This document shows, one piece after another, positions 2,417-58,820 of a DNA stretch of 64,000 nt (position 1 is its first letter; every line of letters starts with the position of its first letter). This DNA is from Celeribacter sp. PS-C1. Its GTDB lineage: Bacteria; Pseudomonadota; Alphaproteobacteria; Rhodobacterales; Rhodobacteraceae. The notes under the pieces are model-generated. The model worked only from the letters and a program-made list of their open reading frames with translations. It was not told where the DNA came from and did not search any database. A program made the position numbers and the translations under genes. The stretch covers positions 124,001-188,000 of the forward strand of contig NZ_JAHXRW010000006.1 in the NCBI RefSeq assembly GCF_019429625.1, written 5' to 3'.

Positions 2417-2580
2417 GTCATCTCATAGGCGGGGTACAAATCCTGCGACATCCTGTCAAGCTCATGACCGATGCACCCGCTCTCGTTAACAAAGATTCAC
2501 CCCCCTGTCGCAGCATCGTGACACTTCTCGCGCATATCAAACGCAGGGAAGACAATCGGGTGCAACAGAGGGTGGCGAAC

Positions 2581-3504
2581 ATGCCCCTTTTGAAGATCAA
2601 CACAGATGGGCCCTTTCTGCCCGCAGGCACCGCCTTGGTGCTGCGCGAAGCTCTGGCGAAGACGCCACAGGGCGCGCCGATCATCATCTGCATTCATGGC
2701 TACAAATTCTCGCCCCGCGTGCCTCAACACGACCCGCATGATCATATTCTCGCGCTTGATCCCGGCCTGACCTGCCGCAAGGCGCTCAGCTGGCCGCGCG
2801 GGCTTGGCTTTGGCACCGGTCGCTCGGACGAAGGGTTGTGCATCGCGCTCGGTTGGCAGGCCCGCGGCTCGATCTGGCAGGCGTATTCTGAGGCCCGCGC
2901 CACCGGCGAGGCTTTGGCGCGACTGATCTGGAAACTCGACCGGCCTGTTCATCTGATGGGCCACTCCTTGGGCGCGCGCGTGATCCTCTCGGCCCTTCCG
3001 CATCTGCCCGAAGGAGCCGTACGGCGGGCGATTCTCCTCTCCGCCGCCGAGTTCCGCTCCACCGCCGAACAGGCCCTCGACAGCGCTGCCGGGCGCAAAG
3101 CGGAGGTTCTGAACGTCACCTCACGCGAAAATGATCTCTTTGATGCGCTCTTTGAGATGGCGCTCGTTCCCGATCATGCCCCCGCTCGTTCACTGGGCGC
3201 GGGGTTGGGGCAATCGCATCGCGGCTGGTGTGACATCCAGATCGACGATGCGGCGACGCGCGCCACATTGGCCCGTCTGGGCTACGACATTCCCGCAGCG
3301 GATAAGAAGATCTGTCACTGGTCCCCCTATCTGCGTGATGGCGTGTTCGAGTTTTACCGCACCGCTCTGCGTCACCCCGAACGCCTGCCGATGGGCTTGT
3401 TACAAAAGGCGCTGCCGGCCACGCCCTCGCCGCGGTTTTCACATCTTTTGCCAGTGTTTTCCTTTGCTTCGCCCTTGTCCTTTTCGCGCAAAGCGTCATC
3501 CTGA
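2581..3504 (+). CDS. Alpha/beta hydrolase
   Basis: Putative cytosolic serine hydrolase of 307 residues. I see the oxyanion region CIHGYKF near 38-43 and the nucleophile elbow GHSLGA with Ser129. Substrate unknown. The chosen ATG has GAGGGTGG 5 bases upstream; an in-frame ATG at 2464 would add 39 residues that look non-homologous and sit in the divergent metZ promoter region. The C-terminus ends in a basic, phenylalanine-rich tail. It is followed by a GST-like gene 52 bases downstream on the same strand. Confidence 0.8.
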   Translation: MPLLKINTDGPFLPAGTALVLREALAKTPQGAPIIICIHGYKFSPRVPQHDPHDHILALDPGLTCRKALSWPRGLGFGTGRSDEGLCIALGWQARGSIWQAYSEARATGEALARLIWKLDRPVHLMGHSLGARVILSALPHLPEGAVRRAILLSAAEFRSTAEQALDSAAGRKAEVLNVTSRENDLFDALFEMALVPDHAPARSLGAGLGQSHRGWCDIQIDDAATRATLARLGYDIPAADKKICHWSPYLRDGVFEFYRTALRHPERLPMGLLQKALPATPSPRFSHLLPVFSFASPLSFSRKASS

Positions 3505-53662: not shown

Positions 53663-55609
53663 ATGGCACCGATTTCTCTCACATTCCCCGATGGCAATTC
53701 CCGCGAGTTTGATGCTGGCGTGACCCCTGCCGATGTGGCCGCAAGCATTTCGAACAGCCTTGCGAAGAAAGCGATCTCCGCGTCCGTCAACGGTCAGCAC
53801 TGGGACCTCCAGTGGCCGATCAACGCGGACGCCCAAATCGCCATTCACACCATGCAAGACGACGCCCCCGCACTTGAACTGATCCGGCATGACCTTGCGC
53901 ATATCATGGCGCGCGCGGTGCAAGAGCTTTGGCCCGATGTCAAAGTGACCATCGGCCCGGTGCGTGACAACGGCTGGTTCTATGACTTCGACCGCGAAGA
54001 GCCGTTCACGCCCGAAGATTTGGGGGCGATCGAAGCGAAGATGAAGGACATCATCAACGCCCGCGAGCCGGTGAAGACCGAAGTGTGGGGCCGTGACGAG
54101 GCGATTGATTATTACAACGCCCGCAATGAGCCGTTCAAAGTCGAACTGGTGAACCGCATTCCCGAGGGTGAGGATTTGCGGATGTATTGGCATGGCGACT
54201 GGCAGGATCTCTGCCGCGGTCCGCATTTGCAACACACCGGCCAAGTGCCTGCGGATGCCTTCAAACTGACCCATGTGGCGGGCGCCTATTGGCTGGGCGA
54301 CAGCTCGCGCCCGATGTTGCAGCGCATCTATGGCGTGGCCTTCAAGAACCGCAAGGATCTGAAGGCCTGGGAACTGATGATGGAAGAGGCCGCCAAGCGC
54401 GATCACCGCAAGCTGGGCAAGGAAATGGACCTGTTCCACATGCAGGAAGAGGCCCCGGGACAGATTTTCTGGCATCCGAACGGCTGGAAAATCTACACCA
54501 CGTTGCAGGACTACATGCGCCGCCAACAGGATCGTGACGGCTATGTCGAGGTGAACACGCCGCAGGTGGTGAACCGCAAGCTCTGGGAAGCCTCGGGGCA
54601 TTGGGACAACTATCAGGAAAACATGTTCATCGTCGAAGTGGACGAGGACCATGCCCGCGAGAAGACCGTCAACGCGCTGAAACCGATGAACTGCCCCTGT
54701 CACGTGCAGGTTTTCAATCAGGGTTTGAAATCCTACCGCGACCTGCCGCTGCGTATGGCCGAATTTGGCTCGTGCAACCGCTATGAACCCTCGGGCGCAC
54801 TGCACGGCATCATGCGCGTGCGCGGCTTCACTCAGGACGACGCGCATATCTTCTGTGAAGAGAAGCACATCGAAGCGGAGACCAAGAAGTTCATCGAGTT
54901 TCTTGCGAAAATCTACGCCGATCTCGGGTTCAACGACTGGTCGATCAAACTTTCGACCCGTCCCGAGAAACGTATCGGTTCGGAAGAAAGCTGGGATCAC
55001 TCCGAGGAGTCTCTGGGCAACGCCTGTAAGGCCGCCGGTTACGACTATGAGATTCAAGAAGGCGAAGGGGCGTTTTACGGACCGAAGCTTGAATTCGTGC
55101 TGACCGACGCGATTGGCCGCGAATGGCAATGTGGCACGCTGCAAGTGGACCCGAACCTGCCGGAGCGTCTGGACGCCAGCTACATCGGTCAGGACGGGGC
55201 GAAACACCGCCCGATCATGTTGCACCGCGCCGTTGTGGGCTCTTTCGAGCGCTTTATCGGCATTCTGATCGAAGAGCACGCGGGCAAACTGCCCTTCTGG
55301 CTCGCGCCCCGTCAGGTCGTTGTGACCACCATCGTCTCCGAGGCGGATGACTACGCCGCCGAGGTCGTGGCCGCCCTCAAAGCCGCCGGAGTGCGCGCCG
55401 AGGCCGACATTCGCAACGAGAAGATCAACTATAAGGTCCGCGAACACAGCCTTGCCAAAGTGCCGGTGATTCTGGCTGTGGGTGCCCGCGAGGTCGAGGA
55501 CAAGACCGTCTCAGTGCGCCGTTTGGGTGAAAAACAGACCGCTATGATGTCACTTTTGGACATCGTGGCTGAGCTGAAAGACGCCGCTCTCGCGCCAGAC
55601 TTGAAATAA
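53663..55609 (+). CDS. thrS: Threonine--tRNA ligase
   Basis: 648 residues. TGS domain (about 1-62), editing SAD domain ([20 protein letters not shown] near 75-94, then the zinc-like HxxxH region), class II catalytic domain with [10 protein letters not shown] (about 341-350, zinc Cys), [10 protein letters not shown] and the motif-3 region, and an anticodon-binding domain from about 550. Normal length. Terminator follows. Confidence 0.96.
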
Positions 55610-55632
55610 TTCAGACACTTCCGAAACGAAAA

Positions 55633-55654
55633 GGCCCCGCTTTGGGGGCCTTTT
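55633..55654 (+). terminator. Intrinsic terminator after thrS
   Basis: GGCCCC (55633-55638) and GGGGCC (55645-55650) with T4, A4 before. Confidence 0.88.
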
Positions 55655-55959
55655 GCATTGCGGCACACGCAATATCGCTTTTTGCGTGAGGATTGTTACA
55701 GGCGGACAGCGGCGGATTTTGGCCGACAAATACTTGAGTATACGCTCAAAATAGCAACCTCGGAAAAATTCGAGAGTTTGAATTCGGGCGTCGCGGACCA
55801 GTTTCGCCATCGGATCAATTCACAAACCCGTTTGTTTCAAACCCTGACACACGCGTCAGGTGACGCCCCCGTGAATGGCCTGTGACCGCCTCAGTCGGCC
55901 AATCTGTGTTCACCGCCACTGACGGCGGAAACGCATGAAACCAACGGGAGACACACCCA
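55655..55959 (+). promoter_or_regulatory. Gene-free region upstream of bufferin operon with dyads
   Basis: About 300 bases with no coding frame. Dyads: TTGAG-N6-CTCAA (55734-55749), CCTGAC-N6-GTCAGG (55843-55860, perfect 6-bp arms) and CCGCC/GGCGG just before the start. The second is a good operator candidate. No exact match to the Caulobacter SigF box (GTAACC-N16-CGAA) was seen. Confidence 0.45.
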
Positions 55960-56265
55960 ATGAGCACTCAATCCAAAACCCTCGCGCTTCTGGGCGCAAT
56001 GACCGCCGCCCTCTCCATCGCGAACGCCGCCTCTGCCCAAGAGCAGGAAAAATGCTTCGGCGTGGCACTGGCCGGTGAGAACGGCTGCGCGGCAGGTCCG
56101 GGTACGACCTGTGCCGGCACCTCGAAGGTCGACTACCAAGGCAACGCCTGGACGCTGGTGCCTGCTGGCACCTGCGCCGACATCGAACTTCCGGCCATGA
56201 TGGACGGCACAGCGCGCATGGGCTCGCTCGAAGCGCTTGACCGCGACCTGCCGATGGACAGCTAA
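55960..56265 (+). CDS. bufA: Bufferin precursor peptide, DUF2282
   Basis: 101 residues. An N-terminal Sec-type signal peptide (about 1-26, ending ASAQ) serves as leader. The core has four cysteines at 32, 43, 51 and 72 in the family pattern [29 protein letters not shown] and PAGTC. In the bufferin family a MNIO enzyme converts some cysteines to thiooxazole-type groups that bind copper. A C-terminal tail ([12 protein letters not shown]) follows. GGGAG precedes the ATG by about 8 bases. First gene of a four-gene operon. Confidence 0.9.
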
Positions 56266-56334
56266 CCGGTTTGGCCCGGCGCGTGACGGACCACATGTGC
56301 CGGGCCAATTTTCGCAAACCTGTAGGAGGCTTCG

Positions 56335-57195
56335 ATGTTGGACCAGACAAAACAGCTGCCGATGGGCGTCGGCGTGGGATATAAATCCAAGCACTTTTCA
56401 AACATTTCCGAGGGGGATCACCCGGTAAAATGGCTCGAAATCCATGCAGAAAACTACATGGGGGAAAAAGGCGCGGCCGGCGGACGTCCGATGGCGCAGC
56501 TGCGCGCGCTCTCAGATCGCTTTCCGATTTCCGTGCATGGTGTGGGGCTTTCTATTGGCGGCGAGGGCCGTCTGGACCCGGATCACCTCGCCCGGCTGAA
56601 ACATCTCATCGACGAGATCAGCCCCGCCTCTTTCTCGGAACATCTCGCCTGGTCAACGCATGACACGGCTTATTTCAACGACCTCTTACCCCTGCCCTAT
56701 ACCGCCAAAACCCTCGCCCGTGTGTGCGATCATATCGACGAGGTGCAGGACCGTTTGGGGCGGCAGATGCTGTTGGAAAATCCGTCCTCCTATCTGGCCT
56801 TCGCCGAAAGCACCTATGGCGAGGTCGAGTTCCTGCGCGCTGTGGTCAAGCGCACCGGCTGCGGGCTTTTGCTCGATGTGAACAATGTTTTCGTCTCCGC
56901 CAACAACCTGCGGATTGACGCCCATGACTATATCGACGCCTTTCCGCATGAGGCCGTGGGGGAAATCCACCTTGGCGGTCATGATGAGGATCAGGACGAA
57001 GACGGCGCGCCGCTTTTGATCGACAGCCACGGTCGCGAGGTCGCCGATCCGGTTTGGCATCTTTACACCTACGCGCTGGCCACCGGCGGGCCGAAGCCGA
57101 CACTCATCGAATGGGACACGGATGTGCCCGAATGGGACGTGCTGGCCTCTGAGGCCGCCCGCGCAGCGCTCCGTCTTGAACAGGTGCTGGTATGA
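56335..57195 (+). CDS. bufB: MNIO-family (DUF692) iron enzyme for bufferin maturation
   Basis: 286 residues, DUF692 TIM-barrel. Likely metal ligands and signature blocks: SVHGV (67-71), SEHLAWS (101-107), LLENPSSYL (147-155), LLLDVNNV (178-185), EIHLGGH (210-216), DSHG (230-233) and EWD (259-261). Known family members use two or three iron atoms to modify cysteines in peptides. AGGAGG precedes the ATG. Immediately follows bufA and overlaps bufC (ATGA). Confidence 0.92.
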   Translation: MLDQTKQLPMGVGVGYKSKHFSNISEGDHPVKWLEIHAENYMGEKGAAGGRPMAQLRALSDRFPISVHGVGLSIGGEGRLDPDHLARLKHLIDEISPASFSEHLAWSTHDTAYFNDLLPLPYTAKTLARVCDHIDEVQDRLGRQMLLENPSSYLAFAESTYGEVEFLRAVVKRTGCGLLLDVNNVFVSANNLRIDAHDYIDAFPHEAVGEIHLGGHDEDQDEDGAPLLIDSHGREVADPVWHLYTYALATGGPKPTLIEWDTDVPEWDVLASEAARAALRLEQVLV

Positions 57196-57926
57196 AACAG
57201 CAAGAGTTCATCCAAGCCGCGCTTGCGCCTGATGCCCCTATTCCGGCAGGGCTTATCACCCCCTCTGGCGCCCCTGCACAGAGGCGCTTTGACGTCTATC
57301 GCAACAACATCATCGTCGGATTGAAAGAAGCCATCGCCGCCTCCTACCCCGCGGTCAAATCTCTCGTCGGAGACGCATTTTTCGAGGCGATGACGGGAGA
57401 CTACGTCCGCGCACATGCACCAAAAACGCCAATCCTGCCACTCTATGGCGATGATTTCGCAGAATTTATCGAGGGCTTTGCTCCGGCCTCCCGTTTGCCC
57501 TATCTCGCCGATGTGGCGCGCCTCGAATTTGCGCTTCGCCAAAGTTATCATGCCGCCGACACGCGCCCGGTGCCGGCGGCGGAGTTTTCTGATCCCTTGT
57601 TGTTCACCCGCCAAGTGGTGCTCGCGCCCACGGTGATCTGGCTCGCGAGCACCTATCCCGTCACGCAATTGCGCCGCTTTACCTTGGACGGCGACAGGCC
57701 ATCCGGCGGGGCGGAGGATGTTCTGATCACCCGCCCGGGCTATGACCCCGTCGCCACGGCCTTCCCTCACGGCACCATCGCCGTGCTTGATGCGCTGCGG
57801 AACGGCATGGCGCTCGCGAATGCCGCCGAGCTTGCGCCTACAGAGCTCGATCTTTCGCAGTTTCTCGGCACGCTTTTGAAAGGCGGCGCCATCATCGACA
57901 TTCTGGAGGGGGATCACGATGTTTAA
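57192..57926 (+). CDS. bufC: DUF2063 partner protein (bufferin operon)
   Basis: 244 residues, DUF2063. N-terminal part has RRFDVYRNNIIVGLKEAIAA then SYPAVKSLVGDAFFEAM (near 31-67), annotated elsewhere as putative DNA-binding but acting as a precursor-recognition partner of DUF692 enzymes. The C-terminal half includes PTVIWLAST and an EDVLITRPG strand. Start ATG 57192 overlaps the bufB stop; its stop overlaps bufD by 8 bases. Confidence 0.9.
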   Translation: MKQQEFIQAALAPDAPIPAGLITPSGAPAQRRFDVYRNNIIVGLKEAIAASYPAVKSLVGDAFFEAMTGDYVRAHAPKTPILPLYGDDFAEFIEGFAPASRLPYLADVARLEFALRQSYHAADTRPVPAAEFSDPLLFTRQVVLAPTVIWLASTYPVTQLRRFTLDGDRPSGGAEDVLITRPGYDPVATAFPHGTIAVLDALRNGMALANAAELAPTELDLSQFLGTLLKGGAIIDILEGDHDV

Positions 57927-58455
57927 AGATCTATGTTCGACCAAGCTCGCCCAGACCAACGCTGTGGCCATGAACGCCCTGCCTCTGCTGGCGCGTCTCA
58001 CATTCGCCGCCGTGTTGCTGCGCTATTTCTGGGCCTCGGCGTTGACCAAATTGGAGGGACCGCTGACCCCGTCCTTCAACGCCTATGCCCAGATTTTCCC
58101 GCGAAAAATGGAGGCGGCAGGCTATGACATTTCGGGCTTTGGTGCTTTTGAATGGCTGGTGATCATGGCGGGAGCCTACGCCGAATTCCTACTGCCTTTG
58201 CTCATCACATTAGGGCTCGCGACCCGGCTGGCCGCACTGGGCATGATCGGCTTTGTCCTCGTGCAAAGCCTCACCGATGTGATCGGGCATGGTCTCGACA
58301 TGGCGAGCATTGGCGCGCTGTTCGACCGGCATTCAGACGCGCTGATCCTCGATCAACGCGCGCTTTGGGGGATGGTCTTGCTTACGCTTGTGGGCCTTGG
58401 CGGAGGTTGGGCCTCATTGGATCGGCTCATTTTCAACCGCCTGAAACACCGTTAA
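57919..58455 (+). CDS. bufD: DoxX family membrane protein (bufferin operon)
   Basis: 178 residues, four predicted membrane spans (about 22-40, 72-95, 100-120, 148-168). DoxX family. Its role in bufferin operons is unclear (electron supply or membrane anchoring are suggested). Overlaps the bufC stop by 8 bases, and converges with the next minus-strand gene over 4 bases. Confidence 0.88.
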   Translation: MFKDLCSTKLAQTNAVAMNALPLLARLTFAAVLLRYFWASALTKLEGPLTPSFNAYAQIFPRKMEAAGYDISGFGAFEWLVIMAGAYAEFLLPLLITLGLATRLAALGMIGFVLVQSLTDVIGHGLDMASIGALFDRHSDALILDQRALWGMVLLTLVGLGGGWASLDRLIFNRLKHR

Positions 58456-58820
58456 AAATGCGCCTTGGCCTCGTCCGGTTTGCCCGCCGCCAGTGCCAAC
58501 AAACCGCCCAACACGCAAAAGCCCAAGGGGAACATGGTAAAGACGTTGAAGCCAAAGCCGACATAGATCAGCCCCGACGCGGCCCACATCAGAACACCGC
58601 CCCAAAGGGCGCGGGCGTGGGCCATGGCGCCACCTGCGATGGCGAGGATCGGGGCCAGAAAGCTCGCCGCCCGGATCAGATCAACATTCGCAACCTGTTC
58701 GAACAACCCTTCGACCTCGCCCCAGCGATCGATCGCCTCGGTATAGCCAAAGCTGAAAAATCCCACAAACATGGCGAGCACGCCGCCCAAAATTCCAAGC
58801 ACAAGCGCCGCGTTGCGCAT
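58452..58820 (-). CDS. Small membrane protein of unknown function
   Basis: 122 residues with about four hydrophobic segments (2-22, 45-65, 72-92, 95-112). No family recognised. Its stop overlaps that of bufD by 4 bases, so the two are unlikely to be cotranscribed. Start ATG 58820 preceded by AGGAGAG. Confidence 0.7.
   Translation of the reverse strand: MRNAALVLGILGGVLAMFVGFFSFGYTEAIDRWGEVEGLFEQVANVDLIRAASFLAPILAIAGGAMAHARALWGGVLMWAASGLIYVGFGFNVFTMFPLGFCVLGGLLALAAGKPDEAKAHF

Follow-up and report, generated by a model that had tools for sequence, protein, structure and literature searches.

A 64,000-nt stretch of DNA from Celeribacter sp. PS-C1 (contig NZ_JAHXRW010000006.1, positions 124,001 to 188,000), here called the window, harbors an intact bufferin operon of the Buf1 type, in the order bufABCD, at 55960-58455 of the forward strand, as read from its open reading frames (ORFs) and from Pfam and NCBIfam profiles. 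Two palindromes lie upstream of bufA, and the 69-nt gap between bufA and bufB contains a hairpin. The features are as follows:

55845..55858, strand undirected: upstream palindrome TGACACACGCGTCA of the TNAC-N6-GTNA type, a class defined by comparison
55861..55878, +: downstream palindrome TGACG-CCCC-CGTGA followed by ATGG, the operator core, from an expectation-maximization (EM) motif and whole-genome searches
55900..55905, +: candidate -10 hexamer CAATCT, a weak match placed by the position of TANNNT in relatives
55960..56265, +: bufA, Buf1 (DUF2282) bufferin precursor, 101 aa, from PF10048, relatives, and the ratio of nonsynonymous to synonymous substitution rates (dN/dS)
56271..56308, +: bufA-bufB intercistronic hairpin with a 15-bp stem, from stem counts and a z score
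56335..57195, +: bufB, MNIO bufferin maturase, 286 aa, from PF05114, NF050167, and PDB 3bww
57192..57926, +: bufC, DUF2063 + RRE-type partner protein (PME type 1), 244 aa, from PF09836 and its AlphaFold2 (AF2) fold
57919..58455, +: bufD, DoxX-family membrane protein, 178 aa, from PF07681, with a homologue in 80/80 named loci

All four ORFs of a preliminary description of this DNA are found where it had placed them, on the forward strand, and the profile search it had proposed (DUF2282, DUF692, DUF2063, and DoxX) returns every protein above its Pfam cut-off, so the missing match that it had named as grounds for refutation did not arise. BufA scores 83.2 bits against PF10048 (DUF2282; cut-off 22.4), BufB 342.5 bits against PF05114 (MNIO; cut-off 25), BufC 86.7 bits against PF09836 (DUF2063; cut-off 27.2) over residues 3-93, and BufD 36.3 bits against PF07681 (DoxX; cut-off 23.6). 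BufB also exceeds the cut-off of the NCBIfam bufferin-maturase equivalog NF050167 MNIO_BufB (373.7 bits; cut-off 310) and lies below those of HvfB, ApyH, MbnB, and ChrH; BufC and BufD likewise lie below the HvfC and HvfX cut-offs, respectively. The bufferin-type arrangement is therefore supported by a DUF2282 precursor with four cysteines, a BufB-class MNIO, a DUF2063 partner, and DoxX in the order bufABCD. The overlapping stops and starts described earlier hold for bufB/bufC (ATGA) and bufC/bufD (8 bases) and fail for bufA/bufB, and the earlier feature list, right about the four genes, had overlooked both the operator ahead of bufA and the hairpin behind it. The host genome (3.87 Mb, 99.96% complete) encodes one DUF2282 protein and one MNIO. 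In identity and general mode the locus is very probably a new copy of the known Buf1 type, whose chemistry and copper role would follow by analogy with Caulobacter. Novelty is confined to regulation, where the account is in part inferential and our confidence is about evenly divided.

Upstream of bufA, the palindromes TGACACACGCGTCA (55845-55858) and TGACGCCCCCGTGA (55861-55874) stand 16 bp apart, and each has the TNAC-N6-GTNA palindrome expected at promoters of a CopR/CusR regulon. The core at 55861 is the sole TNACGN4CGTNA in the window. Relatives came from 80 named loci fetched by BufB similarity; they are the top 80 of a larger pool (551 relatives were among the candidates), so this sample leans to close relatives. 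Dereplication of 80 upstream regions (the window and 79 loci) left 73, which share a motif near YGTGANNCACGNNCYGTGAATGG; its EM log-likelihood is 894, against 79-91 in six shuffled runs that preserved single-base composition only and had 20 starts rather than the 120 given to the real data. On an operator position weight matrix (PWM), trained on loci of the same lineages and read with an ad hoc cut-off of 8, 8/73 upstreams score 8 or less, and five of those fall below zero. Column counts over 56 motif-bearing sequences give TNACG-N4-CGTGA and NCACG-N4-CGTGA 15 bp apart, the first base of the second not being conserved. TANNNT begins 21 nt past the motif in 29/56 dereplicated relatives and 20 nt past it in 7/56 (36/56 together). 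A generic sigma-70 promoter scan was negative over 55600-58700.

The motif is nearly specific to bufferin genes. In 198 whole genomes of the host's family, one per genus, GTGANNCACRNNNNYGTGARTRG at up to one mismatch occurs at 68 sites in 62 genomes, against 4 for the backward control. Forty-nine of these sites fall 162-206 nt ahead of the first Cys codon of a Buf1 gene, comprising 28/47 one-mismatch sites and 21/21 exact ones; all exact matches in the 198 genomes thus stand before a bufferin gene. One of the other 19 sites lies 78 nt before bufB (L114). Of the 19, 18 overlap an ORF of at least 120 aa on some strand, which is weak evidence for chance because the L114 site does so as well; with only 4 sites for the backward control, a few of the 19 may be genuine. 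A search of 385 genomes of the class, among them 5 from the host's family, gave no exact match. In Actibacterium (L067 / L114), the site 78 nt before bufB is a second operator-like one, within a long bufA-bufB intergenic region of 174 nt.

In the host genome, YGTGAMTGGCCTGTGA at up to one mismatch finds the bufA site alone, and its backward control also finds one. The looser TSACG-N4-CGTSA occurs at 31 places, against 5 for the backward control; 22 of these were inspected, in 21 stretches, with the bufA site among the other 9. The inspected places lie mostly within ORFs. Genes with a site close to their start include a Cation_efflux transporter, an outer-membrane protein, and a Cache histidine kinase, in whose stretches the best 24-column motif scores are 0.5-2.7. 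A wider regulon of the palindrome in the host is not claimed.

The regulator might be a copper two-component response regulator of the CusR/CopR kind, a reading that we retain as a rival because of box geometry alone and consider doubtful. The TNAC-N6-GTNA geometry equals that of the Escherichia coli CusR box TGACAAnnTTGTCA and of Pseudomonas aeruginosa CopR, CTGACAn5GTAAT, and CusR regulons are very restricted (PMC11195947), like the strict operator, whose exact matches stand at bufA alone. Against this, the host has no TIGR01387 protein over the cut-off: the best score, 183.3 bits against a cut-off of 279.2, belongs to PhoB, and the six matches at E <=1e-20, all below the cut-off, are PhoB, CtrA, and four proteins without a name over cut-off. 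The fetched stretches of these six contain no TNAC[AG]-N4-[CT]GTNA palindrome. A response-regulator gene with a one-mismatch motif occurs in one of the 198 genomes, and its 88% identical relative in the host lies in a stretch without the motif.

Caulobacter controls its bufferin genes through SigF/NrsF with GTAACC-N16-CGAA promoters, as far as the available text describes them (PMC3511200). SigF/NrsF control in the Celeribacter host was rejected, as its genome has no NrsF (PF06532) and no GTAAC-N16-CGAA lies upstream of bufA. NrsF and SigF homologues occur in five of the 80 named loci (L040, L042, L068, L079, and L080), and these are exactly the loci with GTAACN-N16-CGAA upstream of bufA. Family-wide, DUF2282 is found in 140/198 genomes and an NrsF match in 29/198, 28 over the cut-off. 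Of the 140, 137 were classified, G033, G102, and G173 having been missed by the precursor pattern; G204 was set by hand as operator-positive on an exact match, and G026, with two precursors, was counted once. Ninety-six of the 137 are operator-positive (PWM over 8); NrsF lies within 4 kb of bufA in none of these, and a distant match occurs in 3. None of the 16 with adjacent NrsF is operator-positive. A sigF-type promoter (spacer 15-17) is present in 13/137, all of them NrsF genomes (12 adjacent) and none operator-positive. The exclusion between operator and adjacent NrsF has a Fisher p of 3.5e-10, a value that overstates its strength because the genomes are not independent.

On a quick BufB tree (104 rows), the operator and sigF states need 5 parsimony changes, of which the starred branches require no fewer than 3, whichever label is considered. 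The sigF rows nest among operator rows, with many branches weak; one of the 9 sigF rows, L025, comes from a distant locus whose precursor is of another kind. The swap between operator and sigF control probably happened more than once. NrsF matches remote from the bufferin operon, or on a different contig, were noted in G126, G161, G172, G173, G178, G198, and G218; the G172 match is below the cut-off and has stops, the G161 match is partial, and G161, G172, and G198 combine an operator at bufA with the distant match.

Traces of the palindrome extend beyond the operator class. A looser TNAC-N6-GTNA lies upstream of bufA in 69/96 operator-class genomes (shuffled mean 3.9), 9/17 sigF/NrsF-adjacent genomes (0.4), and 12/23 of the rest (1.0), with G141 dropped from the count for its short upstream. 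It stands within 60 nt 5' of a sigF-type GTAAC in 9/17 rows (8/16 distinct, as the L068 and L306 rows are identical; shuffled mean 0.02), and 8 of the 9 palindromes end 5-6 nt before GTAAC; L042 was wrongly placed by the script, though a sigF promoter and palindrome are visible there.

These observations bear on a second rival, that the conserved block is a promoter for an unrecognized extracytoplasmic function (ECF) sigma factor rather than an operator. The block is bipartite, and related loci without it use the sigF-type GTAAC-N16-CGAA in the same region. Against this rival, the block is palindromic with a 15-bp periodicity, and the fixed 20-21 nt spacing of TANNNT in 36/56 sequences is what an activator site ahead of a housekeeping -10 would show; together with the similar palindrome 5' of the sigF -35 in 9/17 rows, this makes a dedicated sigma factor improbable.

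Downstream of bufA, the first 70 nt hold a stem of at least 9 bp in 77/80 loci (window included), against 30/400 coding windows and 27/400 shuffles, and the 77 hairpin loci have 68 distinct 5' arms. The folding z score is -2 or lower in 65/79 bufA-bufB intergenic regions, and -3.9 in the window. A T-rich tail follows the hairpin in 22 loci only and the terminator scan did not list the window hairpin, so most of these hairpins are probably not intrinsic terminators. Known RNA families (Rfam) give no match at the locus up to E 0.5. The puf mRNA of Rhodobacter carries a 3' stabilizing hairpin. By analogy, the bufA-bufB hairpin is likely a 3' stabilizer that gives precursor excess: directly after bufA, it would stabilize or insulate the bufA message and leave more precursor than enzyme.

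Transcription would start upstream of bufA under a DNA-binding protein that recognizes TNAC-N6-GTNA-type palindromes adjoining the -35 region; the activator-like placement of the palindromes suggests an activator mode, which would replace the SigF-NrsF pair of Caulobacter. Across most of the family, Celeribacter, Ruegeria, Yoonia, and Roseovarius included, control of the bufferin operon would have passed from SigF-NrsF to a regulator not yet described, devoted almost wholly to bufferins and binding NACG-N4-CGTGA palindromes in tandem. The similar palindrome beside sigF promoters points to this regulator as the older sensor, common to both arrangements, and to SigF as the part that can be exchanged, with the hairpin setting precursor excess over enzyme. 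We judge the chances of this whole scheme to be evenly poised. Among the literature matches listed, no title or abstract start concerns the hairpin, the operator, or a regulator acting on it for bufferin operons of Rhodobacteraceae; most subscription journals lie outside that coverage.

Several observations weigh against this account of the operon and its control. The operator in the window is itself atypical: its PWM score is 11.4, against 15-23 for most relatives, it does not match the strict pattern even at one mismatch, and its -10 fits poorly. With no TIGR01387 protein over the cut-off in the host, the operator is not tied to copper. Operator, strict sigF promoter, and NrsF are all lacking in 22/137 genomes, and the operon is not universal in the genus, a BufB match being present in 15/19 congeners.

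The uniformity of the precursor across relatives speaks against a chance arrangement. BufA has cysteines at residues 32, 43, 51, and 72 (C-10-C-7-C-20-C), and 81 precursors recognized in 79/80 named loci all have exactly four cysteines spaced 10-7-20, under a search pattern that demanded four cysteines and tolerated spacings of 8-12, 4-10, and 12-24; the locus without a recognized precursor (L051) has a record that begins near bufA. A GSLxxLxRD-type tail ends 79/81, and both the four cysteines and the C-terminal tail previously described for the window's precursor are present. By eye, the translated N-end of BufA has a Sec-like pattern, being basic and leading into a hydrophobic stretch and an ASA/Q-type site. 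Cleaved ahead of QEQEK, a site chosen by eye, the mature peptide, reduced and unmodified, would have a monoisotopic mass of 7662.46. Three loci (L012, L082, and L110) have a tandem bufA pair before bufB, a precursor duplication, with identical or near-identical cores in L012 and L082 and a more divergent pair in L110. In the other-family locus L025 (genome G046), the Cys-rich small protein preceding the BufB-class MNIO carries repeats of the CKG type in place of the DUF2282 spacing, and the reading frame of this MNIO is long, at 571 aa.

BufB matches PDB 3bww at 2.8e-43 and the TglH and MbnB structures more weakly. Across 81 sequences, 31 of its His/Asp/Glu/Asn positions are at least 97% conserved and 26 are invariant in 81/81; the invariant set includes H68, H103, E148, D181, N184, H212, H232, and E259, and by analogy with the family the conserved residues would include the iron ligands. 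Against PDB sequences BufC has two matches only, at E 0.36 and 0.7, both judged chance. The AF2 model of BufC (pLDDT 93.1) matches solely 8hi7, 8hci (TglHI), and 3dee (NGO1945) at E <=0.001, with TM 0.54-0.60 over 219-270 columns, most of its length. This fold match to known MNIO partners suggests that BufC is a DUF2063 + RRE partner, the RRE half being judged from the whole-length match.

The function of the peptide is approached by analogy. In Buf1, according to the accessible text, the two central cysteines are modified to thiooxazoles, the outer two form a disulfide, and the peptide, once exported through Sec, sequesters copper (PMC12452194); MNIO-PME1 clusters are described as broadly installing 5-thiooxazole (PMC12668002). 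In the Celeribacter host, BufA would be made as a Sec precursor and presented by BufC, through its RRE, to the iron enzyme BufB, which by homology would convert Cys43 and Cys51 to 5-thiooxazoles and leave a Cys32-Cys72 disulfide. The exported peptide would chelate surplus copper in the periplasm, and BufD would give an undefined accessory protection. Both the BufA chemistry and the copper role in this host are inferred from these described systems.

Copper might not be the relevant stress. The operon could instead serve oxidative or sulfur stress, gold, silver, cadmium, or chromate, its peptide binding another soft metal or scavenging oxidants. Caulobacter homologues respond to chromate and cadmium (PMC3511200), the Cupriavidus gig operon responds to gold, silver, and copper and is reportedly without effect on copper resistance (PMC8224329), and DoxX, the family of BufD, is linked to oxidative or sulfur stress (PMC12452194), all as given in the portions of these sources that are available; the operator, too, is tied to no copper regulator in the host. 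Weighing on the other side, the available text reports that the Caulobacter SigF regulon with DUF692/DUF2282 clusters is induced by copper and that a sigF mutant is copper-sensitive (PMC8224329), and the cysteine spacing of the precursor is identical in 81/81 recognized relatives. A purpose other than copper thus seems quite improbable.

The operon is maintained by selection and mostly keeps its neighbors. Against three Celeribacter loci, dN/dS is 0.04-0.14 for bufA and 0.09-0.28 for bufB, bufC, and bufD, with synonymous sites near saturation in several Celeribacter pairs; against Pacificibacter, dS is saturated for 3/4 genes. By these sequence comparisons, bufABCD is under purifying selection. 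The top-scoring named BufB loci are those of Celeribacter litoreus and C. neptunius. Homologues of BufA, BufB, BufC, and BufD are found in 80/80 named loci, with thrS upstream within the fetched 4 kb in 76/80 and an ArsC-like gene downstream in 74/80. Bufferin clusters are widespread, as the family-wide DUF2282 count indicates, and in a set of relatives that includes the host's own genome a BufB match occurs in 40/61 genomes (39/61 over the cut-off). On the reverse strand at 58452-58820, a 122-aa protein without a Pfam or NCBIfam match adjoins the operon, as does its homologue in 56/80 named loci. In L062, one of the four loci without a thrS match, the ORF directly 5' of bufA (2475-3410) resembles, by eye, a cation-diffusion-facilitator transporter.

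Bufferins, peptides that buffer copper, form an abundant class that was described recently, and in the parts of the literature covered SigF-NrsF is the only regulator named for them. A near operon-specific operator in 96/137 genus-level genomes offers a handle on the sensor that controls bufferins in marine Rhodobacteraceae. The mutual exclusion of the two promoter types amounts to a natural experiment on how a single metal-stress operon is rewired.

Known systems frame what is familiar and what is not, as far as their available descriptions go. The operon resembles the Buf1 operon of Caulobacter (CC3254-CC3257, CCNA_03363-03366) in its bufA-bufB-bufC-doxX order, its families, and its DUF2282 precursor. 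Caulobacter has SigF/NrsF and a second SigF-dependent cluster, whereas the host has no NrsF, one DUF2282 protein, one MNIO, and upstream palindromes. The gig operons are described as bufferin clusters (PMC12452194); gig of Cupriavidus metallidurans and GIG of Legionella are described as responding to gold and copper and are set beside the window by description only. Oxazolin (hvf) and other captophorin clusters likewise pair an MNIO with a DUF2063-RRE partner and yield 5-thiooxazole products (PMC12668002), but their precursors have EGKCG repeats, unlike that of the window, whose BufB, BufC, and BufD score below the Hvf cut-offs given above. The bufA operator shares the TNAC-N6-GTNA palindrome geometry of the CusR/CopR boxes of E. 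coli and Pseudomonas, and differs from them in its inner G/C (NACG..CGTGA) and in its usual two copies 15 bp apart.

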